The notes beneath the pieces were generated by a model. It was given only the letters and a program-made list of their open reading frames with translations. It did not search any database and was not told where the DNA came from. From positions 7,068,001 to 7,132,000 of the forward strand of contig NZ_CP160453.1 in NCBI RefSeq assembly GCF_040744945.1: 64,000 bases of DNA, written 5' to 3'. Below, in pieces: positions 7,880-52,281 of this stretch. Numbering within the stretch: the stretch's first letter is position 1; each line of letters opens with the position of its first letter. The stretch comes from Saccharothrix sp. HUAS TT1 (lineage in GTDB: Bacteria > Actinomycetota > Actinomycetes > Mycobacteriales > Pseudonocardiaceae). Both the position numbers and the translations under genes were made by a program.

Positions 7880-7880
7880 G

Positions 7881-9233: not shown

Positions 9234-9236
9234 GGC

Positions 9237-26870: not shown

Positions 26871-27140
26871 ATGTCCACAGAAGAGTTGTTCGAGGACGCC
26901 GCGAACGGGCTCGCGGCACAGGAATCAACAGTGGAAATCACCGCCGCCTGGAAGGAAGTGCTCGGAGCCGACGCCGAGGTGGACACGGGGTTCATCGCCA
27001 ACGGCGGGGACTCGCTCAAGGCCGTGCTGCTCGCCGACCGGATCTTCCGGCTGACCGGCCACGAGGTCGACTACCTGGAGGTTCTGGACGCCCCGGACGC
27101 CGCCACCCTCGCACGGGCCGTTCCCGATGGCCGCGTTTAG
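26871..27140 (+). CDS. Free-standing peptidyl carrier protein (PCP)
   Basis: An 89-residue carrier protein whose phosphopantetheine Ser is Ser48 in the motif FIANGGDSLKA. It is the first gene of the cluster. A GGGGGA site precedes the ATG, and its last 14 bases overlap the start of the Thr-activating NRPS, so it likely presents the first building block to that protein's C domain. No A domain is fused to it; loading must occur in trans, perhaps by the free A domain at 49691-51262. A role as an acyl carrier cannot be excluded, but GGDSL and the following LADRIFRLTGH helix look NRPS-type. Confidence 0.9.
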   Translation: MSTEELFEDAANGLAAQESTVEITAAWKEVLGADAEVDTGFIANGGDSLKAVLLADRIFRLTGHEVDYLEVLDAPDAATLARAVPDGRV

Positions 27141-30100
27141 CGGCCCGGCGAACCAGGACAGCCGCCCGGAGCCTCGCGGGAAAATCCTGGACGCCGATGG
27201 GCACCCGGCGGTGCTGCCGCTCACCCTCGGCCAATGCGACCTGTACGCGGCCGACCGGAGCGCCGAGGACCCCGCCACGTACAATTCCGCGTTGTTCCTG
27301 CGCGTCGACGGCACCCTCGACCCGGACTTCCTGCAAACCCGGATGGACGAAGTGCTCGCCGCCCATCCGCTGCTGAGCGCGAGGGTGGCGGAAAACCGGG
27401 ATCGACTGGTGTTCGCTCCGGCCCACCGGCCCCCGAAGCTGTTCGTCGCCGACGCCCCGGTCGACCCGGACGGGCCACTCGCGCAAGCCCGACTGCGCCG
27501 GGAAGCACTGCGCCCCTTCGACCTCGACAATGGCCCCCTGCTGCGCGTCGTCCTGGTCAGGCACAGCTCCCGGACAGCACACCTGTGCCTGGTGGTTCAC
27601 CATTTGCTCGTGGACGAAACGTCCATGGCGGTGCTCGCCCAGTGGCTGCTCGGTGATGTTCCGGACATTCCCGGCGAATCCTTCACGCAGTGGTCCCGGG
27701 GAAAGCACGAACTGCCGCCCGAACGGCTCGGACGAGCCGCCGACCTCGCCCGTGACCTCGCTCCCGGGGTGTCCGCCGCGCTGGAGTGGGCCCGCACCCC
27801 CGGTGCTCGCAGGACCGGACCGGTCCCGGCCGGGCCTCCCGACACGGCGCCCCTGCTGATCCCCGACGCGGTGTGGGACGCCGCGGGCGAACTGGCGGCC
27901 GGGCTCGGCCTCACCCGCCACTCCCTGGTGCTCGCCGTCGCCGGGTTGGTGCTGAGCCGCAACAGCGCGGCCGCGCGCCCCGTGCTCGGCACCACCGTCT
28001 CCCGCCGCGCCCCTCGCCACGCGACCGCCGTCGGCTACTTCAGCGCCACCGTGCCGGTGCCGCTGGACACCGGCGGCGACCAGACCGTGACGAGCTACCT
28101 GCGCCAGGCCCACAGGTCCGCCATGTCCGCGTACCGGGACGCCGACCTGCCGCTGTCGGCGGTGCTGCCCCCCGCCGACCGCGCCGGCCTGTCCCTGGTC
28201 GTCGTCCCCTGCCGGACGCTGCCCGACGTCGTCACGCCGGAACTGGTGGCGCGTCCCCTGCCGGACCCCGGGTTCGGACCGGCCCAGTTCCCGCTCGCCC
28301 TCTACCTCCGGCAAGACCTCGGTGGCGAGCAGCGCGGCCTGCTGCGCCACCGGCCGACCGAGGTGGACGCCACCGGGGCCGCCGGCTTCTGCCGCCAACT
28401 GGAGGCCACGCTCACCACCATGGTCGAGAACCCGAACGCCCCCCTCTCCACCGTCCCCGCGACCGACCGCGTCGTCACCGCCGGACCGCCGCTCGCCGAC
28501 ACCGCCGGAACCGACCTCGTCTCGCTCTTCGCCGAGCAGGCCACGCGGTTGCCCGGTCACACCGCGGTCAGCTGCGGGGATCAGCGGCTGAGCTACCTCG
28601 AACTGGACGAACGCGCCACCGCGCTCGCCCGGTCCCTGGCCGGATCAGGTGTGCGCGCCGGTGACCGGGTGGGTGTCTGCCTGCAGCCCGGCGCCGACCT
28701 GGTCGTCGCCCTCCTCGCGGTGCTCAAGGCCGGCGCCGCCTACGTGCCCCTCAACCCCGACTACCCGCGCGAACGGCTGGCGTTCATCGCCGAGGACACC
28801 GGTCTCACCACGGCCGTGACCGATCGCGACCCGGCACTGCTGCCGCCGCACGTGACGCTGCTCCCCGTCGACGCCGCCCCCGCCGACGCCGGAACCCCGT
28901 TACCGGAACCGGACCCGGAGCGGGTGGCCTACGTCATCCACACCTCCGGCTCCACCGGCGCCCCCAAGGGGGTCCTGGTGCGGCACCGCAACGTCGTCGC
29001 CCTGCTCGCCGCCACGGCCGGCCCGGAGGGGTTCGGCTTCACCGAGCGGGACACGTGGTCCCTCTTCCACTCCTTCGCCTTCGACTTCTCCGTCTGGGAG
29101 GTCTGGGGGTGCCTGCTGACCGGTGGCCGCCTGGTCGTCGTGCCGCACTGGACCGCCCGCGACCCGGAGGCGTTCCACGCCCTGCTCGCCGCCGAACGCG
29201 TCACCGTGCTCAACCAGACCCCCTCCGCGTTCGCACAGCTCCTCACCGCGGACGCGACCGCGCCGGACCCGCTCTCCGTCCGCCTGCTGATCTTCGGCGG
29301 TGAACCGCTCGACGCGCGGGTGCTGCTGCCCTGGATGGACCGCTACCCGGAGCGGACCTGCCGCGTGGTCAACATGTACGGCATCACCGAGACCACCGTG
29401 CACTGCACGTGGCGGGACCTGACCCGGGCGGACGCCCTCGCCGGGACCCGGTCGGTGGGGCTCCCCCTGCCGGGGTGGCGGTTGTACGTCCTGGACGAGG
29501 AGAGGCGCCCGGTGGCGCCCGGGGTCCCGGGCGAGATCCACGTCGCGGGAAGCGGCGTCACCGCCGGGTACCTCGACCGGCCCGAACTCACCGCCGAGCG
29601 CTTCCTGCCCGGGAGCCTCACCGGGCTCCCGGAAGAAGTCCTCTACCGCTCCGGCGACCGCGGCCGGGTGCTGCCGAACGGGGAACTGGAGCACCTGGGC
29701 CGGCTCGACGACCAGGTCAAGATCCGCGGTCACCGCATCGAGCTCGGCGAGATCCGCGGCGCGCTCCTGGCCCACCCCGCCGTCACCGGAGCCGCGGCGG
29801 TCGTCCGCGACGCCCACGACGCGGCCACCGCGCGGATCGACGCCTACGTGGTCGGCTCCGGCGCCGCTCCCGACCTCGCGGAGCTGCGCCAGTGGCTGGC
29901 CGCGAGCCTGCCCGCGCACATGCTGCCCGCGACCCTCACGCCGGTGCCGTCGTTACCACTGACCGTCAACGGGAAGCTGGACGCGGCCCGACTGCCCCAA
30001 CCCGCGCGCGGCCACGACGCCGACGCGCCGAAGGCGGCCACCGACGCGGGCCCGGACGCGCCTCCCGGGGAGCCGGCGGACGTCGCGAGCCTGCTGGCCC

Positions 30101-30317
30101 GGGTGTGGCAGCAACTCCTCGGCGTCCCGGTGCGACACGACGACAACTTCTTCGAGCTGGGCGGGAACTCGCTGCTGGCGGTGCGCCTCAACACGCTCCA
30201 GCGCTCCAACGGCTTCCGCGGTTCCCAGCTCAAGCACATATTCCGCAACCCGACCCCGCGCCGCCTCGCGGACGTCATCGGCCCGCCCTCCGACGGGCGC
30301 GCCCGCCAGGAGGAAGC

Positions 30318-30321
<4 letters not shown>
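27127..30321 (+). CDS. NRPS module C-A-PCP, predicted to activate L-threonine
   Basis: The protein is 1064 residues. The C domain (about 28-440) has HHLLVDE at 158-164, with Glu in place of the usual Gly. The A domain (about 465-970) has TSGSTGAPKG near 608 and C-terminal Lys in VNGKLD. The PCP has LGGNSL with Ser1015. Reading the specificity positions from FDFSVWEV, LNQTP, LIFGGE and NMYGITETTVH gives DFWNIGMVHK, the established threonine code. The ATG overlaps the PCP gene by 14 bases with no ribosome site of its own, and the stop overlaps the PKS start (GTGA), so it is translationally coupled on both sides. It should condense whatever the free PCP carries with Thr and pass the product to the KS. 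Confidence 0.95.
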
Positions 30322-33351
<3,030 letters not shown>

Positions 33352-33359
<8 letters not shown>

Positions 33360-34473
33360 TCTCTCCGCGCGCCTCGACGCGCTGAACCCGGAACAGCGGC
33401 GCCGGCTGAGCGCGGGACTGCGAACCCAGCGCGCCGAGCAGGTGCGGGCCCCGGTGGCGCTGCCCGAGCACCTGCGCCGCAGCCTCTACTTCTTCGCCAG
33501 CGCCGACCACGCCGACGCCGGCTCCTACTACGCCTTCGTCCTGGAAGCCGCCGCCGAGGCCGACGCGGCGGGCCAGCACGCCGTGTGGTTCCCGGAACGG
33601 CACTTCGTCGACTTCGGCGGTTTCTCGCCCAACCCGGCGCTGCTGGCCGCCGCGGTCGCCACCCGCACCCGCACCATCCGGATCCACGCGGGCAGCGTGG
33701 CCGCCCCGCTGCACCACCCGGCCCGCATCGCCGAGGAGTGGGCGGTCGTGGACAACCTCTCCGGCGGCCGCGTCGGCCTCTCCTTCGGCAGCGGCTGGCA
33801 CCCGGACGACTTCGCCCTGGCCCGCGACGACTACCGGGAACGGCGCGAGGTCACCGGTCGCACCATCGAGGACGTGCGCGCCCTGTGGCGCGGCGAGACC
33901 CTGCCGTACCCGTCCACCGCGGGCACCACGACCGAAGCCTCGACCCGCCCCCGGCCCGTCCAGGAGGAGCTGCCGGTGTGGCTCACCGCCACCGGCACAC
34001 CCCAGACCTTCGTCACCGCCGCCCGGGCCGGCTACGGGGTGGCGACCGCGCTCCTCGGGCAGACGATGCCCGCCCTGCGGGAGAACATCGCCCGCTACCG
34101 GCAGGAGTGGCAGGACGCCGGGCACAGCGGCAAGGGCGACGTCGTGGTCATGACGCACGCGTACGTCAGCGACCGGCCGGACCTGGAGGACTTCCTCCGC
34201 CCGGCCATGCACGCCTACCTGCGGTCCTTCCGCAAGCAGACGGGGGGAAGCGACGAGTTCGTGCTCCTGGAGAACGCCTACCTGGACTTCCTGACCGGTC
34301 CCTCGCTGCTCGGCAGCCCGGCCAAGGCCCGTGCCGTCCTCGCCGACCTGGCCGCGGCCGGCGCCGACGAGGTCGGCTGCCTGATCGACTTCGGGCTCCC
34401 GGCCGCCGACGTCCTGGAGTCGCTGCCCACCCTGTTCGACCTCGGTGTCGCGGCCGTGGAGAGGTCCGCGTGA
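33352..34473 (+). CDS. MupA/Atu3671-type FMN luciferase-like monooxygenase
   Basis: A 373-residue LLM-class flavin oxidoreductase of the type found as a domain inside PKS/NRPS proteins (MupA of mupirocin is the best-known relative). Diagnostic segments are AVWFPERHFVDFGGFSPNP, IHAGSVAAPLHHPARIAEEW and LSFGSGWHPDDF. Such enzymes use FMNH2 and O2 to hydroxylate carrier-bound chains. Here it is free-standing, begins inside the last codons of the PKS gene (8-base overlap) and ends overlapping the C-PCP-E gene. It therefore probably acts on the PKS- or PCP-bound intermediate. The first about 30 residues (LSARLDALNPEQRRRLSAGL) look like an NRPS-type linker, suggesting an ancestor that was fused to a megasynthase. 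Confidence 0.92.
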
Positions 34474-37400
34474 ACACCTCCGCCGACCAGCGGCTGACGG
34501 CCCGGCTCGCCCGGCTCACCCCCGCTCAGCGCGCGGCGCTCACCGCCCGGCTCGCCGCCGGCCACGGCCCGGTGCTGCGGCCCAGGCCGGGGCCGCGGGA
34601 CCGGTTCCCGCTCGGCATGGACCAGGAACGCCTGTGGATCCTCGACCAGCTCGACCCGGGAACCACCACCTACACCCTCGGCTACGGGTTGCGCGTGCTC
34701 GGGGCCTTCGACCCGGACCTCTTCAGCCGCGCCGCGGACAGCCTGGTGAGCCGCCACGACCTGCTGCGCTCCGGGGCCGAGGCCGAGGGCGGCCGCCCCT
34801 ACCTGCGGGTGCACCCCGACCGGCGGGCGGACCTCAGCTACACCGACCTGACGGCCGCCGACACCACCGCCGTGCCCGCCGACGAGGCCGAGCGGCGCCG
34901 CCAGGAGTTCATCGCCGCACAGGTCCGCCGCCCGTTCGCCCTCGCCACCGACCCGGTGTTGCGCCTCGCGGTGGCCAAGGTCGCCGAGGGCGACCACCAG
35001 GTCGTGGAAACCATGCCGCACTCGTTCGTCGACCAGTGGTCGTACGTGCGCCTCAACGAAGAACTCCTGGAGCACTACCGCGCCCTGGCCGAAGGGCGTG
35101 CGCCGCGCGTCGCCGAGATGCCGGTGCAGTTCGGCGACTGGGCCCACTGGCAGCGCGAGTACTTCGCCGGTCCACAGGGCGACCGCCACCGGGACTTCTG
35201 GCGCACCTTCCTGGACGGCGTCCCCGAGCACCTGGCCCTGCCCTACGACCGCAGTCCCGACACCTCCGACCACGCGGGCGAGCACCACAGCTTCATCCTC
35301 GACGGGGCCGTCGCCGAGTCCTTCTTCCGCCGCGCGCGGGAGGTCCGCACCACCCCGGCCACGGCGATGACCGCCGCGTACGCCGCGCTGCTGTACGAGC
35401 GCACCGGGCAGCGCGACCTGGTGATCGGAATCCCCACCGCCACCCGCGGCGAGCCGGAGGCGGCGCCGCTGATCGGGTTCCTGCTGACCAGCATCCCGCT
35501 GCGGATCCGGCTGCCCGAGGACCCCACCCCGCTGGACGTGCTCGCGGCCACGGCCGCTGCCGCCGCCGCCGTGGCCGACCACCGCGAAGTGCCCTTCGGG
35601 GAGATCGTCGAGGCCACCGCCCCCGACCGGTCCGCCACCCGGTACCCGCTGCTGCAGACCATGTTGGTGCAGTTGGACCTCGACGACTCGCGGGCCCTGG
35701 AACTCCCCGGCGCGGAGGTGTACGCCAACGCCGTGCCCGAGGGCATCTCCACCATGGACCTGACCACCGCCTGGTGGCGGGTGGGGAAGGTCGTCTACGG
35801 GCGCATCGAGTACCGGACGGCGCTGTTCGAGCACGCCACCATCGCCGCCATGGCCGACCGGCTGCTCCAGCTCGTCGAGCAGTTCGCGGAACGCCCCGAC
35901 GAGCCGCTGCGGCGGCCCGCCCCACCGCTGCCGGCGCCGCCGACCCCTCTGCTCGGCCACGGCGCCGAAGCCGGCACGGCGGCCGACGGGCCGGTCGACG
36001 CGGCGATCCTGGACCGGGTCACCGCCGCCTGGCGCCGCGTTCTCGGCGTCGAGCACGCCGACCCCGACGCGGTGTTCTTCACCAGCGGCGGCACCTCGAT
36101 GCTCGCCGTCCGGTTCGCCCACCACCTGCGCGGTGACGACCTCGCAGTCACCCTCAAGGACGTTTTCACCCATCCGACCCCGGCCGGACTGGCCCGCGTC
36201 CTCGGCACGCGCCGCGCTGCCCCGGCGGACCGCGCGCCGGTCCCCCCGCCCGGACCTCTCGGCCCCGAGCAGGACATGCTCCTGAGCCGCGGGCTGTCCC
36301 GGGTGGAGGACTTCTCGCACAGCCACGTCCTCACCGCGGACCGCCGGCTCGACCCGGAGCGCTTGCGCCAGGCGGCGCAGGAGGTGGTTCGCGCCCACCC
36401 GACGCTGACCACCACCCTGCGCCCCGACCGCACCCTCGGCGCCCGGCTCGTGCCCGGCTCGGACTGGCACTGGTCGGTGGAGCCCGCCGGCGCCGACCCG
36501 GAGCGGGTGGTGGACGCCCAGCGGGCGGGCTTCGACCGCGTCACCGGGCCGCTGTTCGCCGTCAGCCTCCTGCCCGGAGCACCGGGTGGGGCGGACCGCG
36601 TCGTCCTCAGCGCGAGCCACCTGGTCATCGACGGCATGTCCTGGGGCATCCTCATCGCCGACCTGGCCGCCGCCTACCGGGGCCGACCGCCGGCGGCCGA
36701 ACGCGCCGGGTACGCCGAGCACGCCGCCGTCGTGCGGGCACTGGACCCGGCGCCGCACGCCGGGTACTGGCGGGCCCAGCTGAGCGGGACCGGCCACTAC
36801 GGCTGGCGCCTGGACGGCCCCAACACCTACGCCGACGAGCGGTCGCTGGAGGTGTCGGTAGCGCTGCCGCCCGACGGCCACGGCACGCTGCGGGCCGCCG
36901 CGCTCACCGCCGTCGCCCGCGCGCTGCGGCACTGGGCGCCGCACGACCAGCCGTCGGTGTGGCTGATCGGCCTGGGCCGCGACCCGCTGGCCGCGCTGCC
37001 CGACTGGGACCCGGACCGGGCCGTCGGGTTCTACTCGGCCGCCCACCCCTTCCTGGTGCCGCTCACCGGCGGTCCGGCCCGGGACGACCTGCGGGCCACG
37101 GCCGCCGCGCTGCGCGGTGTCCCCGACGCCGGCAAGACGTTCGGCCTGCTGGCCTGCGCCGCCGACCCCGACCTGCGCGCGGAGTTCGCCGCGCTGGAGC
37201 GGCCCCGGGTGATCGTGAACCACCTGGGCGAGCTGGCCGCCCCCCTCAGTGGTTCGGACGGCTTTTTCACCGCCTCGGAGCAGGTCGCCGCCGCCGGCAA
37301 CGCCGAGGTGGAGCGCGAAGTGGACGTGGACGTGGCGGTCGGGGTGCGCGACGGCCACGCCGTGCTGCGCTGGCTGCACAACCCCCACGCCGTCGACCCG

Positions 37401-41815: not shown

Positions 41816-43227
41816 CCCTGGCCGACCTCCCCCCGAACCTGCACGGGGTGAAATACGGGCAGGCCGGCCTCACCCACGCGGGGCTGGGCGAGCTGCGCCG
41901 CGAGGACCCCGAGCTCGCGGGCCTCCTCGACGCGGAGGTCCGCCACCAGGACACCACCCTGGCGATGATCGCGTCCGCCAGCATCGCCGCGCCCTCCGTC
42001 CTCGCCGCGAGCGGGTCCGCGCTGTCGAACGTCACCGCCGAGGGCTACCCCGGCGCCCGCTACCACCCCGGCGCGGGCAACTTCGACGAGGTCGAACGGC
42101 TCGCCGTGCGGCGCGCCAAGGCCCTGTTCGGGGCGCGCTACGCCAACGTCCAGCCGCACTCGTGCTCCTCCGCCAACCTGGCCGTGCTGGCCGCCCTCGT
42201 GCCGCCCGGCGGCACGCTGCTCGGTCTCGACCTGGACGCCGGCGGCCACCTCACGCACGGCTCCCCGGCTTCGGTCACCGGACGGCACTACCGGGCCGTG
42301 CGCTACGGCCTCGACGCGAACGGCCGGATCGACTACCACCACGTCGCCGAACTCGCCGCCGAACACCGCCCCACCGTGCTGATCGCCGGCGCCAGCGCCT
42401 ACTCCCGGACCCTCGACTTCGCCCGGTTCCGGGAGATCGCCGACTCGGTCGGCGCCTACCTCCTGGCCGACATCTCGCACATCTCGGGCCTGGTCGCCGC
42501 CAACGAGCACCCCAGCCCGATCGACCACGCGCACATCACCACGACCAGCACCTACAAGCAACTCGGCGGACCGCGGGGCGGGCTCATCCTCAGCGGTCGC
42601 GACCACCAGGCCCCCGGTCCCGACGGGCGCACCCCGCTGGACCAGCTGATGCAGCGGGCCGTCTTCCCGCAGAACCAGGGCACCCCGGCCCCCGCGTCGA
42701 TCGCCGCCAAGGCGCGCGCTTTCGCACTCGCCGCCGAGCCCCTGTTCGCCCGGACCGCGAGGCTCACCGTCTCCGGGGCCCGCGCGCTCGCCGCCGAACT
42801 GGCCCGCCTGGGCCACGAGGTGCTCACCGGTGGGACCGACAACCACATGGCCCTGATCGACCTCCGCGACAGCCGGCTCACCGGGGTCGTCGCGGAACGG
42901 GCGCTGGAGGAGTGCGGGATCCTCGTCAACCGCAACCGCGTCCCGGGTGACGCCCGACCTCCCCTGATCACCAGCGGCATCCGGCTGGGCTGCAACATCC
43001 TCGCCCAGCGCGGCATGGGCCCGGAGCACATGCGCGAGTGCGCGGAGCTGATGCACGCCGCCTTGACCGCGACCACCCCGCTGAGCGACACCGAGTACCG
43101 CATCGACCCCTACCAGCGGGTCCGCCTGCGCGAGCACGTCCGGGCGCTGTGCGCCCGCCACCCCCTGCCGCATTCGACCGCCCTGGCCGAAGCCCACAGC
43201 GCCCTCCGGACAGGAGCACTCCTGTGA
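41812..43227 (+). CDS. Serine hydroxymethyltransferase-like PLP enzyme
   Basis: A 471-residue fold-type I PLP enzyme close to GlyA, with the PLP Lys at 249 in TTTSTYKQLGGPRGG. In housekeeping SHMT the residue before Lys is His; here it is Tyr. The protein is about 50 residues longer than GlyA, with an extra C-terminal helix. Biosynthetic SHMT relatives in peptide and nucleoside pathways (for example FmoH and AmiS) make alpha-methylserine from alanine; others act as aldolases making beta-hydroxy amino acids. The gene is coupled to its neighbours by GTGA overlaps, so it almost surely makes a special amino-acid building block for this pathway. The exact reaction cannot be told from sequence. Confidence 0.9.
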   Translation: MTLADLPPNLHGVKYGQAGLTHAGLGELRREDPELAGLLDAEVRHQDTTLAMIASASIAAPSVLAASGSALSNVTAEGYPGARYHPGAGNFDEVERLAVRRAKALFGARYANVQPHSCSSANLAVLAALVPPGGTLLGLDLDAGGHLTHGSPASVTGRHYRAVRYGLDANGRIDYHHVAELAAEHRPTVLIAGASAYSRTLDFARFREIADSVGAYLLADISHISGLVAANEHPSPIDHAHITTTSTYKQLGGPRGGLILSGRDHQAPGPDGRTPLDQLMQRAVFPQNQGTPAPASIAAKARAFALAAEPLFARTARLTVSGARALAAELARLGHEVLTGGTDNHMALIDLRDSRLTGVVAERALEECGILVNRNRVPGDARPPLITSGIRLGCNILAQRGMGPEHMRECAELMHAALTATTPLSDTEYRIDPYQRVRLREHVRALCARHPLPHSTALAEAHSALRTGALL

Positions 43228-45656
43228 GCACCGACAGCACCACCACCACCGAAGCTCCGGCGACCTGGCCGGCCGTGCTCATCCGCGCCGACCGACCCCG
43301 CCGCGCCGGGGCAGACCCCCGGGCGACCGGTCTGGTCCGGGACGCCCTGGCCGGTGTCGCGCACGAGGACGGGACGGCCGCCCGCGAACGGCTCACGGCC
43401 TGCTTCGCGGCACTGCTGCACCGCCTCACCGGTCAGGACCTGATCGCCCTCGCCACTCCCGGCGGCGTCATCGGGTACACCGTCGACCCGGACTCCACCA
43501 TTGCGGACCTGGTGGCCCGCAGCACCCTCGTGACGCCCGCCGCCGACCTCGGCACGCCGGTGGTGGCGGTCGACCACCGCACCGGGCCGCAGGGCGCCCC
43601 GCCGTTCGAGTGGCACCTCGCCCTGGACCGGCAGGACGACGCCTGGACCGCCGAACTGCGCTACGACGAGCGGCTGTTCACGGCGGACACCGCCCGTCGC
43701 GTCCTGTCCCACCTGCGCACCCTCACGGCGGGCGCCACCCGCGCTCCGCGCACGCCGGTCTCCCGGCTGGCCCTGCTCACCGCCGAGGAGACGCACCGCG
43801 TCCTGGTCGAGTGGAACGACACGACGGCCGACCTGCCGCACGACACCTGCCTGCACACGGCGTTCGAGGAGAGGGCCGCGGCCGACCCCGGCGCGCCCGC
43901 CGTCGTCGACGCCGCGCGCACCTGGACGTACGGGGAGGTCGACGCCGCCGCCAACCGGCTCGCGCACCGGCTCCGGGACGAGGGCGTGGGGCCCGACGTG
44001 CGGGTCGGGCTGTGCCTGGAGCGCTCCGCCACCCTGCTCGCCGCCGTGCTGGGCATCCTGAAGGCCGGTGGCGCCTACGTGCCCCTCGACCCGGACTACC
44101 CCGCCCAGCGGCTGGACTCGATGCTGGAGGGCGCCTCCTGCGCCGCCGTGGTCACCGACCGGGTCCGGGCTGCCGCGCTGCCCGCCCCGCCGCCCGGCGC
44201 CGACCGACCGGTCGTCCTGGTCGAAGGGCTCCTCGACGGCGCCGCGCCCGACCTCGCGGCACGACCGGGAACCGGCCTCGGCCGGATCGCGGGTCCCGAC
44301 GACCTGTGCTACGTCATCCACACCTCCGGGTCGACAGGTCTGCCCAAGCCCATCGCCCTGCGCCACCGCGGCGTGGTGAACAACCTGGCGGACCTCAACT
44401 CCCGCTTCGCCGTGGGTCCCTCGGACCGCGTCCTCGCCCTGTCCTCGCCGAGCTTCGACATGTCGGTCTACGAATTCCTGGGGATCACCGCGGCCGGCGG
44501 CGTCGTCGTGGTGCCCGAGGCGGACCGCGCCAAGGACGTGGCGCACTGGGCCCGCCTCTTCGCGCAGCACGACGTCACCATCTGGAACTCCGCCCCGGCC
44601 CTCCTGGAACTGCTCGCGGAACACCTGGAGAACACCGGTGGCACGGCCCTGAGCCGGCTGCGGCTGGTCATGCTCGGCGGCGACTGGGTCCCGGTGTCCT
44701 TGCCCGAACGGGTGCGGGCGCTCGCCCCCCGGGTCCGCTTCGTGGCCCTCGGCGGCGCCACCGAGGCGTCGATCCACTCCACGATCCACGAGGTGGCGGA
44801 GACCGACCCGGCCTGGACCAGCATCCCCTACGGCCGCCCCATGGCCAACCAGCGCGTGTACGTCCTGGACGACGCGTTGCAGCCGGTCCCGCCCGGGGTC
44901 GTCGGCGAGCTCCACCTGGCCGGCGTCGGGCTGGCCAGGGGCTACCTGGAACGCCCCGACCTCACCGCCGAGCGCTTCCTGGACTGGTCCTGCGGCGACG
45001 TGCACGACCGCCTCTACCGGACCGGGGACCTCACCCGCTGGCGCCCGGACGGCGTCCTGGAACTCCTCGGCCGCAAGGACTTCCAGGTCAAGCTGCACGG
45101 CCTGCGCGTCGAACCGGGTGAGGTGGAAGCCGTGCTGCGCGCCCACCCCGACGTGAAGGACGCCGTCGTCACGTCCCGGGAGGACTCCACCGGAACCCGG
45201 CGGCTGGTCGGCCACGTCGTCCCCCTCCCCGACCGGACCCCGCGCCCCGAGGAACTGCGCGCGCACCTGGCCAGGGTGCTGCCCTCCTTCATGGTTCCCG
45301 CGGCGGTCCTCGTCCTGGACGAACTGCCCCTCAACCCCAACGGCAAGCTCGACCGCAAGGCCCTCGGCGCCCTCGCCGCGGCGCCCGGCGCACCGGAGCC
45401 CGGAGCGGTGGCCTTCGAAGCCCCGGTCGGCGCCTGGGAGGAGCACATCGCCGCGGTGTGGCAGGACGTCCTGGGCACCGGTCCGGTCGGCCGCGACGCC
45501 GACTTCTTCGCGCTCGGCGGCGACTCCATGTCCGCGCTGCGCTGCCTGGCCCGCATCGACGGCGGCCTGCGCTGGCCCGAGCTGTTCCGCCACCCGACGG
45601 TCCGCCGGCTCGCCGCCCACGTCGCCGCCACCGGACGCCCGCCGCTGCCGCGCTGA
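43224..45656 (+). CDS. NRPS A-PCP protein with a truncated condensation domain
   Basis: The protein is 810 residues. About residues 40-185 match only the C-terminal lobe of a C domain (LHRLTGQDLIALATPGG, ELRYDERLFTADTARRVL). The N-lobe with the HHxxxDG site is missing, so it cannot condense. The A domain (about 200-700) has TSGSTGLPKP and NPNGKLD. The PCP is FFALGGDSMSA, Ser768. Specificity positions read from FDMSVYEF, IWNSAP, VMLGGDW and LGGATEASIH give DMYNMGLIHK. That belongs to the subgroup that includes Cys-type codes (DLYNLSLIWK) but matches none I know. An unusual residue, perhaps one made by the adjacent SHMT-like enzyme, is plausible. It could be an initiation unit or use the free C domain in trans. 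Confidence 0.92.
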   Translation: MSTDSTTTTEAPATWPAVLIRADRPRRAGADPRATGLVRDALAGVAHEDGTAARERLTACFAALLHRLTGQDLIALATPGGVIGYTVDPDSTIADLVARSTLVTPAADLGTPVVAVDHRTGPQGAPPFEWHLALDRQDDAWTAELRYDERLFTADTARRVLSHLRTLTAGATRAPRTPVSRLALLTAEETHRVLVEWNDTTADLPHDTCLHTAFEERAAADPGAPAVVDAARTWTYGEVDAAANRLAHRLRDEGVGPDVRVGLCLERSATLLAAVLGILKAGGAYVPLDPDYPAQRLDSMLEGASCAAVVTDRVRAAALPAPPPGADRPVVLVEGLLDGAAPDLAARPGTGLGRIAGPDDLCYVIHTSGSTGLPKPIALRHRGVVNNLADLNSRFAVGPSDRVLALSSPSFDMSVYEFLGITAAGGVVVVPEADRAKDVAHWARLFAQHDVTIWNSAPALLELLAEHLENTGGTALSRLRLVMLGGDWVPVSLPERVRALAPRVRFVALGGATEASIHSTIHEVAETDPAWTSIPYGRPMANQRVYVLDDALQPVPPGVVGELHLAGVGLARGYLERPDLTAERFLDWSCGDVHDRLYRTGDLTRWRPDGVLELLGRKDFQVKLHGLRVEPGEVEAVLRAHPDVKDAVVTSREDSTGTRRLVGHVVPLPDRTPRPEELRAHLARVLPSFMVPAAVLVLDELPLNPNGKLDRKALGALAAAPGAPEPGAVAFEAPVGAWEEHIAAVWQDVLGTGPVGRDADFFALGGDSMSALRCLARIDGGLRWPELFRHPTVRRLAAHVAATGRPPLPR

Positions 45657-45704
45657 GCGTCCCCCGACCCCCGCATCCCGGGCCACTCCTGACAAGGACT
45701 CCGA

Positions 45705-48700
45705 ATGCAGAAACCCGCGACCCCAGGGCAGCTCCGCTTCTTCGTGCTCGACATGCAGCAGCCCCGGCCCGCCATCGTGCACTCCTTGGCCGTTTCCGGA
45801 GCGGTGGACGTCGACCGGCTGCTGGCCGCCGTGCGCGCTGTGCTGCGCGCCCAGTCGGCCATGCGGGTCTCCTTGCACATGGAGCCCGAGGGCCTGGTTC
45901 AACGCGTCCACCCGGTGTCCGAGGTTCCGCTTGCGGTGCACCCCCTGCCGGAGGACGAGGAGTTGGCACACCGAGCCCTTGAGCACCACGTGTCCGCGCT
46001 CGGCGCTCCCTTCGACCACGCCGGTGCACCGCTGTGCCGGATCACGGTCCTGCACCGCGCCGACCGGGCGCACCTGCTGTTCGCCGTGCACCACGGCGTC
46101 TTCGACGACGGTTCCGCCGCCGCCCTGCTGTCCTCGCTGACGACCGCCCACGGGCTGGGGCCGGGCGAACTCGCCGACGCCGAGCCGCCGGAGGGCGTCC
46201 CGTCCGCCGAACGCCTCGACCTGCTGCGGCGGTTCTGGACGACCGCGCTCGAAGGGGCGCCGGAGGACTGCGCCCTGCCACAGCTCACGCCCGGCGCGGA
46301 CCGCGCCCGCGCGTCGCTCGCCACGCGGCTGCCCGACGCCCTCGTAGACCAAATGTCCCGCCGCGCGGCGGAAACGGGGGCGAGCGCGTTCACCCAGGTG
46401 ATGAGCGCCCTGGCCTGGGTCGCGGGGTGGTACGGGCGCACCGACGACGTCGTCGTCGCCACGGTCAGCGGAGCCGAGCGGGACACCCGCGGCGTCTCGG
46501 TCGTCGGTTGCCTGCAGAACACCATCCCGGTCCGCGTCGACCTGACCGGCGCCACCACGGAGGACCTGCTCGACCGCACCCTGGAAGCCCTCTTCGACGC
46601 GGTCGAGCACGCGGACCTGCCGATCGAGGACATCCTGGCCGTGACCGGCGCGCCGCGCCACCCCGACCGCAAGCCCTTCACCCAGCTGCTGTGCACCCAG
46701 GGCGAGCTGCACACCGAGACCGTCGACGCGGCGGGCCTGCGGTGGCGGATGGAACCGCCCGAGTCCGACCAGGTGGAGTACGACCTGAGCGTCACCCTGC
46801 TGAACGCCCCCGATGGCGGGAAGCACCTGGCCGTCGCCCACCCCCGTTCGGCCCTCGACGCCCGCACCGCGGAGCGCTTCCTGGACCACCTCGTCGCGGC
46901 CCTCGACGCGCTGACCGCTCCGGAGGCCCGGCTGCTGACCGCGCACGACCTCCTCGGCGCGCGGGAACGCGCCGAACTCGCGGCGCTGACGGGTCCTCCG
47001 GTCGCCACCGCGACCGTGCCGGTGCACCACCTCGTCCGGGCCAGGGCGGAGTCCGACCCGGCGGCCGTCGCCGTTCGCAGCGCCGCCGGGCAACTGGACT
47101 ACGCCGCCGTGACCGACCGCGCCCGAGCCCTCGCCGCCGCCCTCGTGGAAGCGGGCGTGCGCCCCGGGGACCGGGTCGGGATCCACCTGGGCAGCTCACC
47201 GGACCTGGTCGTCTCGGTCCTGGCCACCTGGTGGGCGGGCGCCGCCTACGTGCCGCTGGACCCCGACCACCCCGCCGAACGGCTGCGCTACGTCCTGCGG
47301 GACGCCGAGCCCGCCGCGCTGATCGCCAGGGCTCCCCTGCTGCCCGGCCTGCGGACGCTGACCCCGGACTCCGCCTCACCGGCGCCGGCGGAGTGGCCGG
47401 AGATCGCCTCCGACGCCCCCGCGTACGTCATGTACACCTCCGGGTCCACCGGCCGCCCCAAGGGCGCCGTCATCCGCCACGACAACCTGTGCGCCCTGTT
47501 CGCCGCCTTCGACGCCGAGTTCCCCGACGGCCCCGGCGTGGTCCTGGCAGGCACCAGTTCCTCCTTCGACATCAGTCTCATCGAGCTGGTCTGGCCGCTG
47601 ACCAACGGCCGCACCGCGCACCTGACCAGCCACCGCACGGTCCTCCAGGACGTGCCGGACCCGGACGGCGCGTTCTACCAGTGCACCCCGTCCGCCGCCC
47701 GGCTGCACACCGCCTCCGCGCAGGGGCGCGCGTTCCTCGCCCGGCTCGGCGGCCTGCTGGTCGGGGGCGAGCCGCTGGCCGACGACCTCGCCGACGACCT
47801 CGCCGGACTCGTCCCCGGTCCGGTCCTGAACGGCTACGGACCGACCGAGGCCACCGTGTACACCACGCTGTGGCGGGTCACCCCCGGCGCACCGGTGCAC
47901 ATCGGCCTGCCGCTGCCGGGCGTGCGCTGCCACGTGGTGGACGCGAGCGGCCGCGACCTGCCGCCGGGGTGCCCCGGCGACCTGCTGATCTCCGGCGCCG
48001 GTGTGGGTGACGGCTACTGGCGGCGCCCGGACCTGACCACCGAGCGCTTCCCCGCGCTGCCCCGTGCCGGTGGCGTCCCCGGCTACCACAGCGGCGACGT
48101 CGTGTCCTTCACCCCCGGCGCCGGCCTCAAGTTCCTCCACCGGGCCGACGACCAGGTCAAGATCCTCGGGCAGCGCATCGAGACCGGGGAGATCGAGACC
48201 ACGTTGCGCCGGCGTCCCGGCGTCCGGGACGCCGCCGTCGCCCCGCTGCCGGACCACACCGGTGTCATCGCCTTCCTCGTGCGCGAGGACGACCCCGGAG
48301 CGGGCCCGTCGCCCCGCCCGCTGCCCGCCGCCGTCGCGGCCGAGCTGCGGCGCGGCACGGCGGACTGGCTCACCGGGGCCATGCTGCCCACCGAGTGGCA
48401 CGGCGTGGCCGACCTGCCCCGCTCGCCCAACGGCAAGCTCGACCGGCGGGTCCTCGCCGACTGGGCCGCCGCGAGTGCCGAGGCGGTGGGTTCCGCCGCC
48501 GCCGCACTGCCCGGGACGGCCGCTGCCGCCGTCTCGCAGGTCTGGGAACGGGTCCTGGGCGAACCGGTCACCGACACCGGGGCCACCTTCTTCGAACTCG
48601 GCGGCACGTCCTCGGGGATACTCCAGGTGTTGACCCTGCTGCGGTCCCGTTATCCCTCACTGCACGCGGCAGACCTGTTCCGGCACACCAGGGTGCGGGC

Positions 48701-48854
48701 GTTGGCCGGCTTCCTGGACGGCCTTGACAACGCTCCTCTTGACGGCGCCGAGTCTCCCGCCGGCGGCGGACGGAGCCCGGCGCCGACCGGCGCGCAGCGC
48801 GGTGCGCGCCGCGCCCAGGCGCTGAGCGGCTGGGCCGGCCGGTCCCGTCGCTGA
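45705..48854 (+). CDS. NRPS module C-A-PCP with atypical, Gly-like specificity code
   Basis: The protein is 1049 residues. The C domain has HHGVFDD at 129-135, with Asp in place of the final Gly. The A domain has TSGSTGRPKG and SPNGKLD. The PCP is FFELGGTSSGI, Ser969. Code positions from FDISLIEL, FYQCTP, LLVGGE and NGYGPTEATVY give DIIQLGGVYK, nearest to glycine-type codes (DILQLGLIW), so glycine or another small residue is a tentative guess. A tail of about 70 residues rich in Gly, Ala and Arg follows the PCP, with no thioesterase or reductase domain. The gene starts 48 bases after the previous one with an AAGGA site, the first real gap in the chain of overlaps. By position it may be the last elongation module. 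Confidence 0.93.
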   Translation: MQKPATPGQLRFFVLDMQQPRPAIVHSLAVSGAVDVDRLLAAVRAVLRAQSAMRVSLHMEPEGLVQRVHPVSEVPLAVHPLPEDEELAHRALEHHVSALGAPFDHAGAPLCRITVLHRADRAHLLFAVHHGVFDDGSAAALLSSLTTAHGLGPGELADAEPPEGVPSAERLDLLRRFWTTALEGAPEDCALPQLTPGADRARASLATRLPDALVDQMSRRAAETGASAFTQVMSALAWVAGWYGRTDDVVVATVSGAERDTRGVSVVGCLQNTIPVRVDLTGATTEDLLDRTLEALFDAVEHADLPIEDILAVTGAPRHPDRKPFTQLLCTQGELHTETVDAAGLRWRMEPPESDQVEYDLSVTLLNAPDGGKHLAVAHPRSALDARTAERFLDHLVAALDALTAPEARLLTAHDLLGARERAELAALTGPPVATATVPVHHLVRARAESDPAAVAVRSAAGQLDYAAVTDRARALAAALVEAGVRPGDRVGIHLGSSPDLVVSVLATWWAGAAYVPLDPDHPAERLRYVLRDAEPAALIARAPLLPGLRTLTPDSASPAPAEWPEIASDAPAYVMYTSGSTGRPKGAVIRHDNLCALFAAFDAEFPDGPGVVLAGTSSSFDISLIELVWPLTNGRTAHLTSHRTVLQDVPDPDGAFYQCTPSAARLHTASAQGRAFLARLGGLLVGGEPLADDLADDLAGLVPGPVLNGYGPTEATVYTTLWRVTPGAPVHIGLPLPGVRCHVVDASGRDLPPGCPGDLLISGAGVGDGYWRRPDLTTERFPALPRAGGVPGYHSGDVVSFTPGAGLKFLHRADDQVKILGQRIETGEIETTLRRRPGVRDAAVAPLPDHTGVIAFLVREDDPGAGPSPRPLPAAVAAELRRGTADWLTGAMLPTEWHGVADLPRSPNGKLDRRVLADWAAASAEAVGSAAAALPGTAAAAVSQVWERVLGEPVTDTGATFFELGGTSSGILQVLTLLRSRYPSLHAADLFRHTRVRALAGFLDGLDNAPLDGAESPAGGGRSPAPTGAQRGARRAQALSGWAGRSRR

Positions 48855-48929
48855 CCGCTCGACGGCTCCCCGTGCCGCGGTCTTCGGGGCGCCCCACCCT
48901 CCCTCCTCCCGCGCTCCCCTGGAGTCACG

Positions 48930-49634
48930 ATGACGATCGCCGTGATGTGCCTGCCCTACGCCGGAGGTGGGGCCGGGGTCTTCCGACCGTGGCAGAACCA
49001 GCCCGGTCTGCCGTTCCGGATCGTTCCGGTCCAGCTGCCGGGACGCGACGAGTGGTTCGTCCAGGAACCCTGCACGACCATGGCGGAGGCCGCCCGCGTC
49101 TGCGTCGACCAGATCCGCGAAGCGGCGGGAACCGGTCCGTTCGCCGTGTTCGGGCACAGCTTCGGCGCGCTGCTGGCGTACGAGGTGGTCCTGCTGCTCG
49201 CCGCCGACGGAGCGCGGCTGCCCGAGCGCCTGGTGGTCAGCGGGGCGGCGGCGCCCGGCGTGGCCCGCCCCCGGATGGACGGCGCCCGGCTCGACGACGA
49301 CGCGTTCGTCGCCCGGTTGCGCGGACTCGTGGGTTACGACCACGAGGCTTGGCACGAACCGGAGTTGCGGGAACTGCTGCTCCCGGCGCTCCGCGCCGAC
49401 CTGGAGATCCAGGACGGCTACACCCCTTCACCCGGCGGCCCGTTGACCGTGCCGGTGAGCGTCCTGCGCGGCGCCGAGGACGAACTGGTGCCGTACGAGG
49501 ACGCGGCTCGCTGGGCTGAGCACACGTCCTCCGGAGCCACCGTGGTGGACGTGCCGGGCGGTCACATGTACTTCGCCCAGGACTGGCCGCTGTTCTGGAA
49601 GACGCTCGGCGCACTGGTGCAGGCCCACGGGTGA
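48930..49634 (+). CDS. Type II thioesterase (second of two)
   Basis: A 234-residue alpha/beta hydrolase with LPYAGGGAG, Ser77 in GHSFGALLAYE and a C-terminal GGHMYF His. It resembles the thioesterase at 41123-41815 in length and motif layout but differs at many positions, so it is not a recent duplicate. A GGAG site precedes the ATG. It is the last plus-strand gene of the cluster and ends inside a strong hairpin. In bialaphos-type pathways two type II thioesterases also serve an assembly line without a fused one; a product-release role here is inference. Confidence 0.94.
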   Translation: MTIAVMCLPYAGGGAGVFRPWQNQPGLPFRIVPVQLPGRDEWFVQEPCTTMAEAARVCVDQIREAAGTGPFAVFGHSFGALLAYEVVLLLAADGARLPERLVVSGAAAPGVARPRMDGARLDDDAFVARLRGLVGYDHEAWHEPELRELLLPALRADLEIQDGYTPSPGGPLTVPVSVLRGAEDELVPYEDAARWAEHTSSGATVVDVPGGHMYFAQDWPLFWKTLGALVQAHG

Positions 49635-49675
49635 AGGGCGGTGGGCTCCCGGTTCCAGAGAGCCCACCGCCCTTC
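49633..49675. terminator. Bidirectional hairpin terminator closing the plus-strand operon
   Basis: A perfect 16-base stem (gaagggcggtgggctc with gagcccaccgcccttc) and an 11-base loop begin at the stop codon of the thioesterase gene. The hairpin lies between convergent genes and has no U-tract. It should end transcription from both sides. Confidence 0.9.
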
Positions 49676-49690
49676 GCCTGCGCGTCCGGA

Positions 49691-51262
49691 TCAGTCCTGG
49701 GACTCGGCCAGCTGCTGCGCCAGCACCAAGCGGTCCAGCTTGCCGTTGGAGTTCATCGGCAGCTCGGTCCGGTGGGTGAACCGGAGCGGCACCATGTAGC
49801 GCGGCAGGCGTTCGGAGAGCGCCTCGCGCAGCTGCGCCGCAGGCCGGGCGACCCCCGTGTACACCGCCTCCAGCCGCGTCTGCCCGTCCTCGCCGCGCAG
49901 GGCCACCACCGCGACCTGACCGATGCCGTCCTGCTCGCGCAGCACCGCCTCGGCCTCGCCGACCTCCACCCGTTGGCCCATGATCTTGACCTGCTGGTCG
50001 AGCCGCCCCAGGTGCACCAGGACCCCGTCGTCCAGCACCTGGACCAGGTCTCCGGTGCGGTACCAGTGGTCCTCGTCCGGGACGTACCGCCCGGTGGTCT
50101 CCACGGGACGCCCTGAGGCGTCCAGGAACCGTCCCCGGTTGTCGTCCTCGTCGAGGTATCCGGCGAACCGCTGCACGCCGCGCAGGAGCAACTCGCCCAC
50201 GCTGGAGGGCTTGCCCTGCTCGTCCACGACCCGGTGGTCGAGATGGGGGTAGACCGGGCCGATGGGGAGGGTGCCGTTGGCCGTGCGCGGCCAGTCCTCC
50301 ACCCGCTCCGGCAGCCGGTACTGCGTCGAGAGGATGGTCAGCTCGGTCGGCCCGTACACGTTCTCCACCACGCTCTGCGGCGCGGCCGTGCGCCAAGCCT
50401 TGGCCTGCTGCACCGTCAACTGCTCGCCCCCGAACAGGCTCCAGCGCAACGAAGGCATCGAGCCGGGGTCGAGACCCCCGGTCAGGTCCGCCATCGTGAT
50501 CACGGACGGCACCGAGAACCAGTGCGTGATCCCCTCTCGGGTCACGAACCGGGCCGGTTTGGGCAGTTCGCTCCGGGGTGGGACGACCAGGGTGGCGCCC
50601 GAGCCCCAGGCGCCGAACAGTTCGAGGACGGACGCGTCGAACGCCAGGCCGCTGTTCTGGGCCATCCGGCAGCCGGGCCCGAGCGCGTAGCGGTCGATGA
50701 CGTACCGCAGGAAGGCGTCGATGCTGCGGTGCGCGACCGGCACGCCCTTGGGGGTGCCGGTCGATCCCGAGGTGAACAGCACGTACGCGGCATCCCCAGC
50801 GGCTGCTTCGGTCCGGGGCGGCACTTCCCCCACCGCTTCGCCTTGGCGCAACCGCGCCAGGAGGTCCGGGGACAGGTGCAGGACCGGCACGTCCGGGACC
50901 TCGGGCGCCGGGACGTGGTCGACCAGGCGCAGGTTCAGGCCGGAGACCCGCGCGACGGAGGCCAGCCGTGCCGCGGGGAAGGACGAGTTGAGCGGGACCA
51001 CGGCCGCGCCCAGGCGCAGCGCCGCCAAGCACGCCGCGTAGGTCAACGTGCCCGGCGTCGTCGTCAGGCCCACCCGACGCGGAGCACGGCCGTCGCACGC
51101 GGTCAGGATCTCCCGGGCCAGCGCCACGGCCAGGCCGTCCAGTGCGCGATAGGTCAGCCGTTCCCCGCCGACCTCCAGGGCAACGAGCTCGCCGTGCTCC
51201 CGTGCCGACGCGGCGAACCAGTCGTACAGGTCGCGCGGCGCACCGGATTCCTGTCCGGTCAT
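49691..51262 (-). CDS. Free-standing adenylation domain
   Basis: A 523-residue stand-alone A domain with TSGSTGTPKG, YGPTE and the C-terminal catalytic Lys in NSNGKLD. No carrier or condensation domain is attached. Code positions from FDASVLEL, WFSVP, LFGGEQ and NVYGPTELTIL give DALFLGVILK, suggestive of an aliphatic side chain but matching no code I know. It is on the opposite strand, in a two-gene operon with the epimerase-like gene, whose stop its ATG overlaps (TGATG). It is the obvious candidate to load the two carriers lacking an A domain in cis, the first-gene PCP and the C-PCP-E protein. Whether it serves one or both is unknown. Confidence 0.92.
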   Translation of the reverse strand: MTGQESGAPRDLYDWFAASAREHGELVALEVGGERLTYRALDGLAVALAREILTACDGRAPRRVGLTTTPGTLTYAACLAALRLGAAVVPLNSSFPAARLASVARVSGLNLRLVDHVPAPEVPDVPVLHLSPDLLARLRQGEAVGEVPPRTEAAAGDAAYVLFTSGSTGTPKGVPVAHRSIDAFLRYVIDRYALGPGCRMAQNSGLAFDASVLELFGAWGSGATLVVPPRSELPKPARFVTREGITHWFSVPSVITMADLTGGLDPGSMPSLRWSLFGGEQLTVQQAKAWRTAAPQSVVENVYGPTELTILSTQYRLPERVEDWPRTANGTLPIGPVYPHLDHRVVDEQGKPSSVGELLLRGVQRFAGYLDEDDNRGRFLDASGRPVETTGRYVPDEDHWYRTGDLVQVLDDGVLVHLGRLDQQVKIMGQRVEVGEAEAVLREQDGIGQVAVVALRGEDGQTRLEAVYTGVARPAAQLREALSERLPRYMVPLRFTHRTELPMNSNGKLDRLVLAQQLAESQD

Positions 51263-52281
51263 CAGCCGCCCACCTGGGCCCGCCACGCGCTAAGCACTCC
51301 GCGCTCCTTCACCGGGTCGATCCCGAGCACGGTGTCGCCCTGCCGGTAGGGGGTCTCGGACGGGCCGCGCTCACCCAGCCACTCCCAGGCGTCCTCAACC
51401 GTCCGGGCCAACGGGCGGCAGCGCAGCCCGGCGGCGACGGCCTTCGCCGGGGAAGCCGCCCAGGCGCCCGCCATGGCGGGCTGCTCCAGCGCCCAGAACG
51501 GCATCTCGGTCCAGGGCTGCACGTCGTGGTCCACCAGGAAGTCCTCGGCGACCCACACCGGTCGCGCCCCCGCTCCGGTCACCCGCGCGCACAGGTCCAG
51601 CAATTCACCGAAGGTCGTGGTGCCCTCGGGGCCGGTGACCACGTGACGCCCGGCAGCGCCCTTCTCCAGCAGGTCGAGCCCGAACGCCGCGATGTCCCGG
51701 GCGTCGATGAGCTGGACCGGCTGCCCGGCCCGGCCCGGCGCGACGACCTCGCCGCCGCGAGCCATGCGCTCCAGCCACCACAGCAGCCGTCCGGGAGTTT
51801 CGCGCGGACCTACGATCAGTCCGGGGTTGAGGACGCAGGTGTCGCCCTCGAAGTACTTCTCCAAAGCCCGCTCGCACCCCGCCTTGAGCACGTTGCCGGA
51901 CACCTCGTCAACGGCGGCGTCCGGCGGGCAGAGGTGGCGCGGCGATTGTTCATCGACGGGTCCGGCGGGCCAGTCGGCGTAGGCGTGGACGGACGACACG
52001 AACAGGTACGCTCCCGCCCTGCCGCTGAGGGCTCGGGCCGACTGCCCGACGGTGCGGGGCCGGGAACCACTGGTGTCGATCACCGCGTCCCACGGTCCCG
52101 CGGCGGCGAGGGCGTCCAGGTCGATCGGATCCTCCCGGTCACCCCGGATGTTCCGCGCTCCCCGTGTTCCAGGTCCGGACTTCCCCCGGTTGAACACGGT
52201 CAAGGAATGCCCACGAGCGATTGCCTCCTGCGCGAAAAACCATCCGAGGAATACCGAGCCCCCAATGATGAGGATCTTCAC
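51262..52281 (-). CDS. NAD-dependent epimerase/reductase-like protein (extended/atypical SDR)
   Basis: A 339-residue protein with a Rossmann motif IIGGSVFLGW at the N-terminus, FNRGKSG after beta-2 and the strand IRGDREDP. This layout is shared by actinobacterial CSP41-like NAD-dependent epimerase/dehydratase proteins. The usual YxxxK is not obvious: SSVHAYADW follows the SS strand, and a Lys occurs later (GNVLKAGCE). It may therefore be a reductase or a non-standard member. It is the first gene of a minus-strand pair with the free A domain, so it probably tailors the amino acid that domain activates. The GTG start at 52281 has an AAGGGG stretch very close to it. Confidence 0.85.
   Translation of the reverse strand: MKILIIGGSVFLGWFFAQEAIARGHSLTVFNRGKSGPGTRGARNIRGDREDPIDLDALAAAGPWDAVIDTSGSRPRTVGQSARALSGRAGAYLFVSSVHAYADWPAGPVDEQSPRHLCPPDAAVDEVSGNVLKAGCERALEKYFEGDTCVLNPGLIVGPRETPGRLLWWLERMARGGEVVAPGRAGQPVQLIDARDIAAFGLDLLEKGAAGRHVVTGPEGTTTFGELLDLCARVTGAGARPVWVAEDFLVDHDVQPWTEMPFWALEQPAMAGAWAASPAKAVAAGLRCRPLARTVEDAWEWLGERGPSETPYRQGDTVLGIDPVKERGVLSAWRAQVGG

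Follow-up and report, generated by a model that had tools for sequence, protein, structure and literature searches.

How is a biosynthetic line served when it holds more carrier domains than domains to load them? The question is raised by a cluster of 15 genes at positions 26871-52281 of a 64,000-nucleotide stretch of the Saccharothrix sp. HUAS TT1 genome (hereafter the window), in which nonribosomal peptide synthetase (NRPS) and polyketide synthase (PKS) parts occur as discrete domains. An earlier interpretation based on the letters of the window (the sequence-only reading) had counted six carriers against five loading domains and reasoned that at least one carrier would have to draw on another's loader or be charged from outside. 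The count was borne out by Pfam, which returned from the 15 genes six PP-binding carriers, four AMP-binding (adenylation, A) domains, one acyltransferase (AT) and one ketosynthase (KS). The carriers are a free-standing peptidyl carrier protein (PCP) and those of two condensation (C)-A-PCP modules, CAT1 and CAT3, of the KS-AT-acyl carrier protein (ACP), of a C-PCP-epimerization (E) protein without an A domain (CPE) and of the A-PCP protein AT2, and their Ser motif is kept in all six. Also present, as had been described, are a free C domain (HHLVYDG), a free A domain, an enzyme resembling serine hydroxymethyltransferase (SHMT) and a MupA-type luciferase-like monooxygenase (LLM), and Pfam detected no fused thioesterase (TE) or reductase in the 15 genes, in line with the same description. 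Two free thioesterases, a free short-chain dehydrogenase/reductase (SDR) and an exporter of the major facilitator superfamily (MFS) had been overlooked. Free-standing A, PCP and C domains thus occur together, as in discrete-domain (type II) NRPS. The C-domain remnant of AT2 lies slightly below the Pfam cut-off (30.1 vs 30.6 bits).

Recurrence of the carrier surplus

We scanned the GTDB species collection with a C-PCP-E alignment and obtained 65 loci. Seven of them were orthologues (47-82%), from Streptomyces sp. NRRL S-1022, S. bauhiniae, S. corynorhini, S. chattanoogensis, Kitasatospora aureofaciens, S. misionensis and Saccharothrix obliqua, and the other 58, with an identity of at most 34%, were set aside as generic NRPS. 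Streptomyces sp. BHT-5-2 carries a further cluster on a linear replicon of 2.8 Mb, found in the first of eight plasmid records with an LLM match, the one record examined, which brings the C-PCP-E clusters, window included, to nine in Streptomyces, Kitasatospora and Saccharothrix. The cluster is therefore more than a chance observation, as most of its gene set recurs in eight other genomes, among them Saccharothrix obliqua, of the same genus as the window. The window proteins share 67-91% identity with those of the three closest streptomycetes and 44-70% with those of Saccharothrix obliqua; this higher identity to another genus than to its own indicates that the cluster moved between genera. 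It is rare, since a search for C-PCP-E across the class found it in 1 of 394 genomes, its own, and at 1e-40 the free C domain gave matches in 6 of the 390 genomes of the family, own genome included.

Four genomes (G063, G064, G076 and G248) carry a smaller related cluster without PKS, LLM and C-PCP-E. In G064 it consists of FkbH, MaoC-SDR, ACP, PCP, Thr module, free C, TE and C-A-PCP with a P450 nearby, and adjoins urease genes; FkbH, MaoC-SDR and the P450 were read in that genome only. The C-A-PCP code is VD.TISLAD in the two read, which we take to be beta-amino-acid-like. Apart from these clusters, NRPS proteins with A-PCP, C-PCP-C-PCP and A-C-PCP-C-A-PCP layouts in several Streptomyces (L056-L072) hold other modules in which no cis A domain was detected.

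Among the C-PCP-E clusters, seven are complete and contain a free A domain, and in every one of them carriers outnumber loaders by exactly one: six to five in the window, NRRL S-1022, S. bauhiniae, S. corynorhini and Saccharothrix obliqua, five to four in S. misionensis and seven to six in BHT-5-2. Because the surplus recurs across clusters, the imbalance is not decay, and the reasoning that a carrier borrows a loader or obtains its charge in some other way is supported. Two clusters stand outside the count: that of S. chattanoogensis lies on two contigs, with PCP and most of CAT1 not assessable, and that of K. aureofaciens has no free A, with seven carriers (including a 78-aa carrier judged by eye) against five loaders (including FkbH).

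A gene for the free A domain is present in eight of the nine C-PCP-E clusters and, within the stretches fetched, in none of the four related clusters without C-PCP-E, which keep the free PCP and the Thr module. Since the free A domain tracks the A-less C-PCP-E protein, it is probably the trans loader of that carrier, and this pairing leaves the free PCP, a homologue of which is found in all 12 assessable clusters of both types (window included), as the surplus carrier. The homologue in K. aureofaciens shares 50% over 60 aa. For S. misionensis, we dropped both a supposed lack of free PCP and a one-to-one argument built on it, a homologue being present there as well (42% over 59 aa). The seven in-cluster free A domains entered into a tree form one clade (SH-aLRT 100). 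Free-A codes differ between lineages (DALFLGVIL, DAFFLGVIL, DCDFLGTVM, DVYFMGMVV, DPAYVGSIS and DVYFVGLII), which makes the residue that they supply the variable position; in BHT-5-2 the gene is flanked by KAS III-like and isopropylmalate-synthase-like genes, which fit an aliphatic residue. Three points count against the pairing. K. aureofaciens has C-PCP-E but no free A match at 1e-60 genome-wide; free-A homologues (37-52% identity) also lie outside the cluster in four of seven genomes, so that the family is not confined to a pairing with CPE and the profile is suggestive only; and the cross-cluster profile is drawn from 13 clusters of shared ancestry.

As for what charges the free PCP, S. 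misionensis offers a sole A domain without a cis carrier facing two carriers without a cis A, and its genes for PCP, TE and free A are direct neighbours on a single strand. This arrangement would suit a free A domain that charges both A-less carriers, the free PCP and CPE, so that the same hydrophobic residue enters twice, which is possible although we would not count on it, as the four smaller clusters keep the free PCP with neither C-PCP-E nor this free A in the fetched stretches. It is rather unlikely that the Thr A domain of CAT1 charges the free PCP besides its own carrier and a Thr or Thr-derived unit enters twice. Of the A-bearing genes, only the Thr module was seen to accompany the free PCP in all 12 assessable clusters, and a second Thr-type A-PCP in BHT-5-2 would agree with two Thr entries, but that cluster keeps its free PCP despite the second Thr A-PCP.

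The epimerase-type domain of C-PCP-E

The last domain of the C-PCP-E protein had been named an E domain, and as anatomy the name stands. It groups with E domains, at a support of 100/100, in a tree of C and E domains that comprised 19 from these clusters and 69 others, left of 92 labelled domains after a crude similarity filter. A profile of this last domain matches E-domain chains at 112-220 bits and C-domain chains at no more than 41. An AlphaFold model of this part only reached a pLDDT of 67.7, and with it Foldseek ranked E domains first at a TM of about 0.5, C domains being nearly as high.

A catalytic residue, however, is gone. The Glu of EGHGRE, named together with the His of HHxxxDG as the E active site (PMC7551626), is missing from all nine clusters (Ile, Met or Val in the eight aligned, Ile in BHT-5-2), whereas all 14 control E domains retain it. 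The controls came from the window's own genome and from L039, L071 and L075, of which the last two are near-copies of each other, with the near-copies L073 and L076-L078 excluded. Moreover, none of the C domains of these clusters falls among those of D-donor type, whose clade in the tree (98/92) takes in every one of the 19 post-E C domains along with six more. The loss of the Glu, which is the base, agrees with this lack of a D-specific partner, and on sequence grounds the domain is probably a conserved pseudo-E, from which no D-residue is expected. A point to the contrary is that the second His and the Asp of HHxxxDG are kept in all nine; together with conservation in nine genomes, they also make simple decay unlikely. 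Grouping, profile and kept residues would all accord with an active E domain and a D-configured residue after the polyketide unit, but against the lost Glu and the missing D-donor-type C domain we judge that reading improbable. LgrA is a recorded case of an inactive E domain (PMC8150014).

The genes of the LLM and of CPE overlap by 4 bases. The X domain of glycopeptide synthetases is a recruitment platform, and on its model the pseudo-E might hold trans partners, such as the free A and the LLM, on the A-less C-PCP, one stand-alone A then feeding more than one carrier. We give this idea little chance; if true, the lineage as a whole would possess an alternative to cis loading, with a former epimerase as its docking site. 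In any automatic product prediction, a conserved epimerase without its catalytic Glu would mislead.

Proposed module order, building blocks and product

That the assembly departs from the usual order, as had been claimed, is not supported. CAT1, CAT3, PKS, LLM and C-PCP-E follow each other colinearly in Saccharothrix obliqua, K. aureofaciens and S. misionensis (three of the nine clusters), and in the window the CAT3-TE2 pair sits elsewhere; the SHMT and the LLM can each be given a plausible, specific role, and a line can do without a fused thioesterase where discrete ones take its place. The Thr module, also part of the sequence-only reading, carries a code of the form DFW[NS][IV][GA]MVH in all 12 readable clusters. 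A first survey of A-domain codes missed CAT3 of three relatives and two C-A-PCP proteins of the G064 type; CAT3, then read from motif blocks, has the code DILQLGCVWK in four relatives and DIIQLGGVYK in the window and S. corynorhini. We take the CAT3 code to be Gly-like and DFWNIGMVHK of CAT1 to denote Thr. The LLM scores 364 bits against the TIGR04020 curated cut-off of 244, which places it in the MupA/Atu3671 family. Alpha-carbon hydroxylation has been proposed for monooxygenases of this type and, for CalD and MndB, chain shortening by a Baeyer-Villiger-type step (PMC8739492, PMC4219810). The second reaction may be an alternative role of the LLM in this cluster.

The SHMT and AT2 co-occur in seven of seven clusters and are both absent from K. 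aureofaciens and S. misionensis. In those seven (six aligned and BHT-5-2) the SHMT has Thr for Tyr55 and His for Tyr65, whereas the two nearest SHMTs of the same genome (L093 and L094) have Tyr at both. These positions correspond to Thr60 and His70 of alpha-methylserine hydroxymethyltransferase and bear on the choice of donor (PMC6411801), and a Y55T mutation is reported to raise the use of D-Ser as donor (PMC4761611). The top structure match of the cluster enzyme, 7qcw, has Thr and His at the same two positions of the alignment. Given this signature, the adjacent AT2 probably takes alpha-methylserine, with alpha-hydroxymethylserine as the second choice. AT2 scores 412 bits against the FmoA3 structure 6lta, compared with 264 for CAT1, and the related entry 6ltd is titled FmoA3-alpha-methyl-L-serine-AMP. 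We rejected a view of the SHMT as having lost a catalytic Glu: the enzyme retains the Glu of AEGYP and differs instead at the donor-specificity tyrosines, in IASEN and at the residue before the PLP lysine.

Starting from the observed anatomy, conservation and active-site changes, we propose substrates, an order and loader-carrier pairings for a complete, laterally spread NRPS-PKS line, a scheme that we advance tentatively and at somewhat less than even confidence. The line would run on small proteins, most of them translationally coupled. CAT1 would load Thr and hand the chain to CAT3 for a Gly-like residue, after which KS-AT-ACP would add one malonyl unit. The LLM may oxidise the alpha carbon of this unit and the free SDR reduce its beta-keto group, yielding a 4-amino-2-hydroxy-3-oxo- or 2,3-dihydroxybutyrate-type unit. 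C-PCP-pseudoE would then add a hydrophobic residue supplied in trans by the free A. The SHMT is predicted to make alpha-methyl-L-serine (or alpha-hydroxymethylserine) for AT2, whose unit could be joined via the free C domain. Release or editing would fall to the discrete thioesterases and export to the MFS protein, and the surplus carrier would be the free PCP, for which the free A or the Thr A domain would serve as shared loader. The putative product would thus comprise Thr, a Gly-like residue, an alpha-oxidised C2 unit, a hydrophobic residue and alpha-methylserine.

Several observations weigh against this scheme. S. misionensis has no SDR. FmoA3 is not the top match of AT2, since LgrA, 8xjz and Txo2 score higher and BmdB nearly equal, and the SHMT has Tyr in place of the His that precedes the PLP lysine and, for the Glu of IASEN, Ala or Ser. 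BHT-5-2 has an extra stand-alone Thr-code A-PCP (L112:11284-13008) upstream of CAT3, and the CAT3 of S. chattanoogensis has the tail of an A-PCP protein before it (L111:1-356); an extra A-PCP beside CAT3 suggests two Thr sites or two chains, outside the proposed linear order. Two chains built separately, one by CAT3-TE2 with its own Thr A-PCP donor and one by PCP-CAT1-PKS-CPE-AT2, and later joined by the free C domain, would account for the extra Thr-type A-PCP of BHT-5-2, the two thioesterases of the window and the divergent CAT3-TE2 unit in NRRL S-1022, S. bauhiniae, S. corynorhini and BHT-5-2. The in-line CAT1-CAT3-PKS order of three of the nine clusters speaks against such a division, which we find hard to favour. 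The C domain of an A-PCP-C protein in K. aureofaciens is no clear member of the free-C family (31%, compared with 29.5% for an ordinary C domain). The cluster might also make a compound already described and represented by a curated cluster; its conservation across nine genomes or more makes an earlier encounter conceivable. This is unlikely in view of the open-access literature, in which we found no matching pathway or product. To that extent the sequence-only reading, which knew of no match, was right; the support is weak, as the comparison covered open-access papers.

Surroundings of the cluster and comparison with known systems

The host genome measures 8.7 Mb and gives 65 condensation-domain matches. 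Thirteen cluster genes lie on the + strand and one gene pair on the - strand, and by their coordinates 8 of the 12 junctions on the + strand overlap, by 4-14 bases (Table 1). MbtH gave ten matches across the genome and none in the window. Type VII secretion genes form the left flank of the cluster, and a Na/Ca exchanger with others the right flank; for three neighbours (the exchanger, an FAD protein at 23821-25467, and 53884-54891) there was no match in the fetched stretches of 11 relatives or BHT-5-2.

Table 1. Genes of the cluster, by position in the window
Feature	Position	Strand	Evidence
Free-standing PCP (NGGDSLK)	26871..27140	+	PP-binding 32 bits
CAT1: C-A-PCP, Thr code DFWNIGMVHK, C motif HHxxxDE	27127..30321	+	Pfam, motif and code reading
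PKS: KS-AT-ACP without reducing domains	30318..33359	+	Pfam, motifs
Free MupA-type LLM	33352..34473	+	TIGR04020 364 bits; top structure match PuwE 6ket
CPE: C-PCP-E without A domain; degenerate E (Glu of EGHGRE = Ile)	34470..37583	+	Pfam, tree, motif, profile
MFS exporter	37580..38932	+	Pfam
Free SDR, candidate beta-ketoreductase	38929..39777	+	Pfam; role inferred
Free-standing C domain (HHLVYDG)	39774..41126	+	Pfam, motif, tree
TE1, free thioesterase	41132..41815	+	Pfam 104 bits
SHMT-like enzyme, Thr/His signature of alpha-methylserine hydroxymethyltransferase	41812..43227	+	Alignment
AT2: C remnant, A (DMYNMGLIHK), PCP; candidate alpha-methylserine module	43275..45656	+	Pfam, code, structure match
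CAT3: C-A-PCP, code DIIQLGGVYK	45705..48854	+	Pfam, code, motifs
TE2, free thioesterase	48930..49634	+	Pfam 121 bits
Free-standing A domain (DALFLGVILK), candidate trans loader of CPE	49691..51286	-	Pfam, code, tree
NAD-dependent epimerase/dehydratase-fold protein	51262..52281	-	Pfam; present in 5/9 clusters

Elsewhere in the window, the type VII (ESX) secretion locus (1683-14605, - strand) includes an AAA protein with beta-helix, EccB, EccD and an FtsK/SpoIIIE-type protein, and adjoins the gene of a 1209-aa protein with a sub-threshold PPE match. A large BTAD/AAA transcriptional activator at 19860-23261 (+), a few kb upstream of the cluster, may be its regulator. An alpha-galactosidase with a C-terminal ricin-type lectin domain lies at 56001-57632 (+).

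Among known systems, the C-1027 proteins SgcC1, SgcC2 and SgcC5 and the bleomycin line also place a free A, a free PCP and a free C in one pathway, and their chemistry differs from that of the cluster. The free C domain scores only 47.5 bits against 4znm ('C-domain type II peptide synthetase'), which we take to be SgcC5. The JBIR-34 and tambromycin pathways use a heterocyclization (Cy) domain, of motif DxxxxD. They resemble the AT2 proposal in that FmoA3 has alpha-methylserine activated by an A-PCP protein; unlike them, the cluster has a PKS and an LLM, and its C motifs are not of the Cy type. The Cy motif was not found in CAT1, CAT3, CPE or the free C, which read HHxxxDx or PHxxxDx. Tambromycin contains alpha-methyl serine (PMC8466323). 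A terminal methylserine is likewise found in amicetin, a nucleoside with PABA and two deoxysugars for which the part of the source at hand describes no NRPS-PKS line of the cluster type (PMC7040171). In the puwainaphycin pathway, the MupA-type monooxygenase of PuwE (6ket, the top structure match of the LLM) acts beside a PKS module (PMC4219810), as in the cluster, but within a hybrid protein that includes an aminotransferase; here the LLM is a free protein.

One A domain charges several carriers in the yersiniabactin synthetase through large multidomain proteins; a shared loader in the cluster would serve small ones. The gene sets of bleomycin, actinobolin/bactobolin, antimycin, detoxin/rimosamide, pepstatin, syrbactins and conagenin presumably do not fit. 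We found no pathway in the open-access literature for a likely product that unites Thr, a Gly-like residue, an alpha-oxidised C2 unit and alpha-methylserine. The cluster is a compact natural set whose NRPS-PKS parts are separable and whose carrier surplus is conserved, which makes the pairing of loaders and carriers directly testable with small proteins. In its logic, the cluster is a variant of known discrete-domain NRPS-PKS systems, not a new kind.

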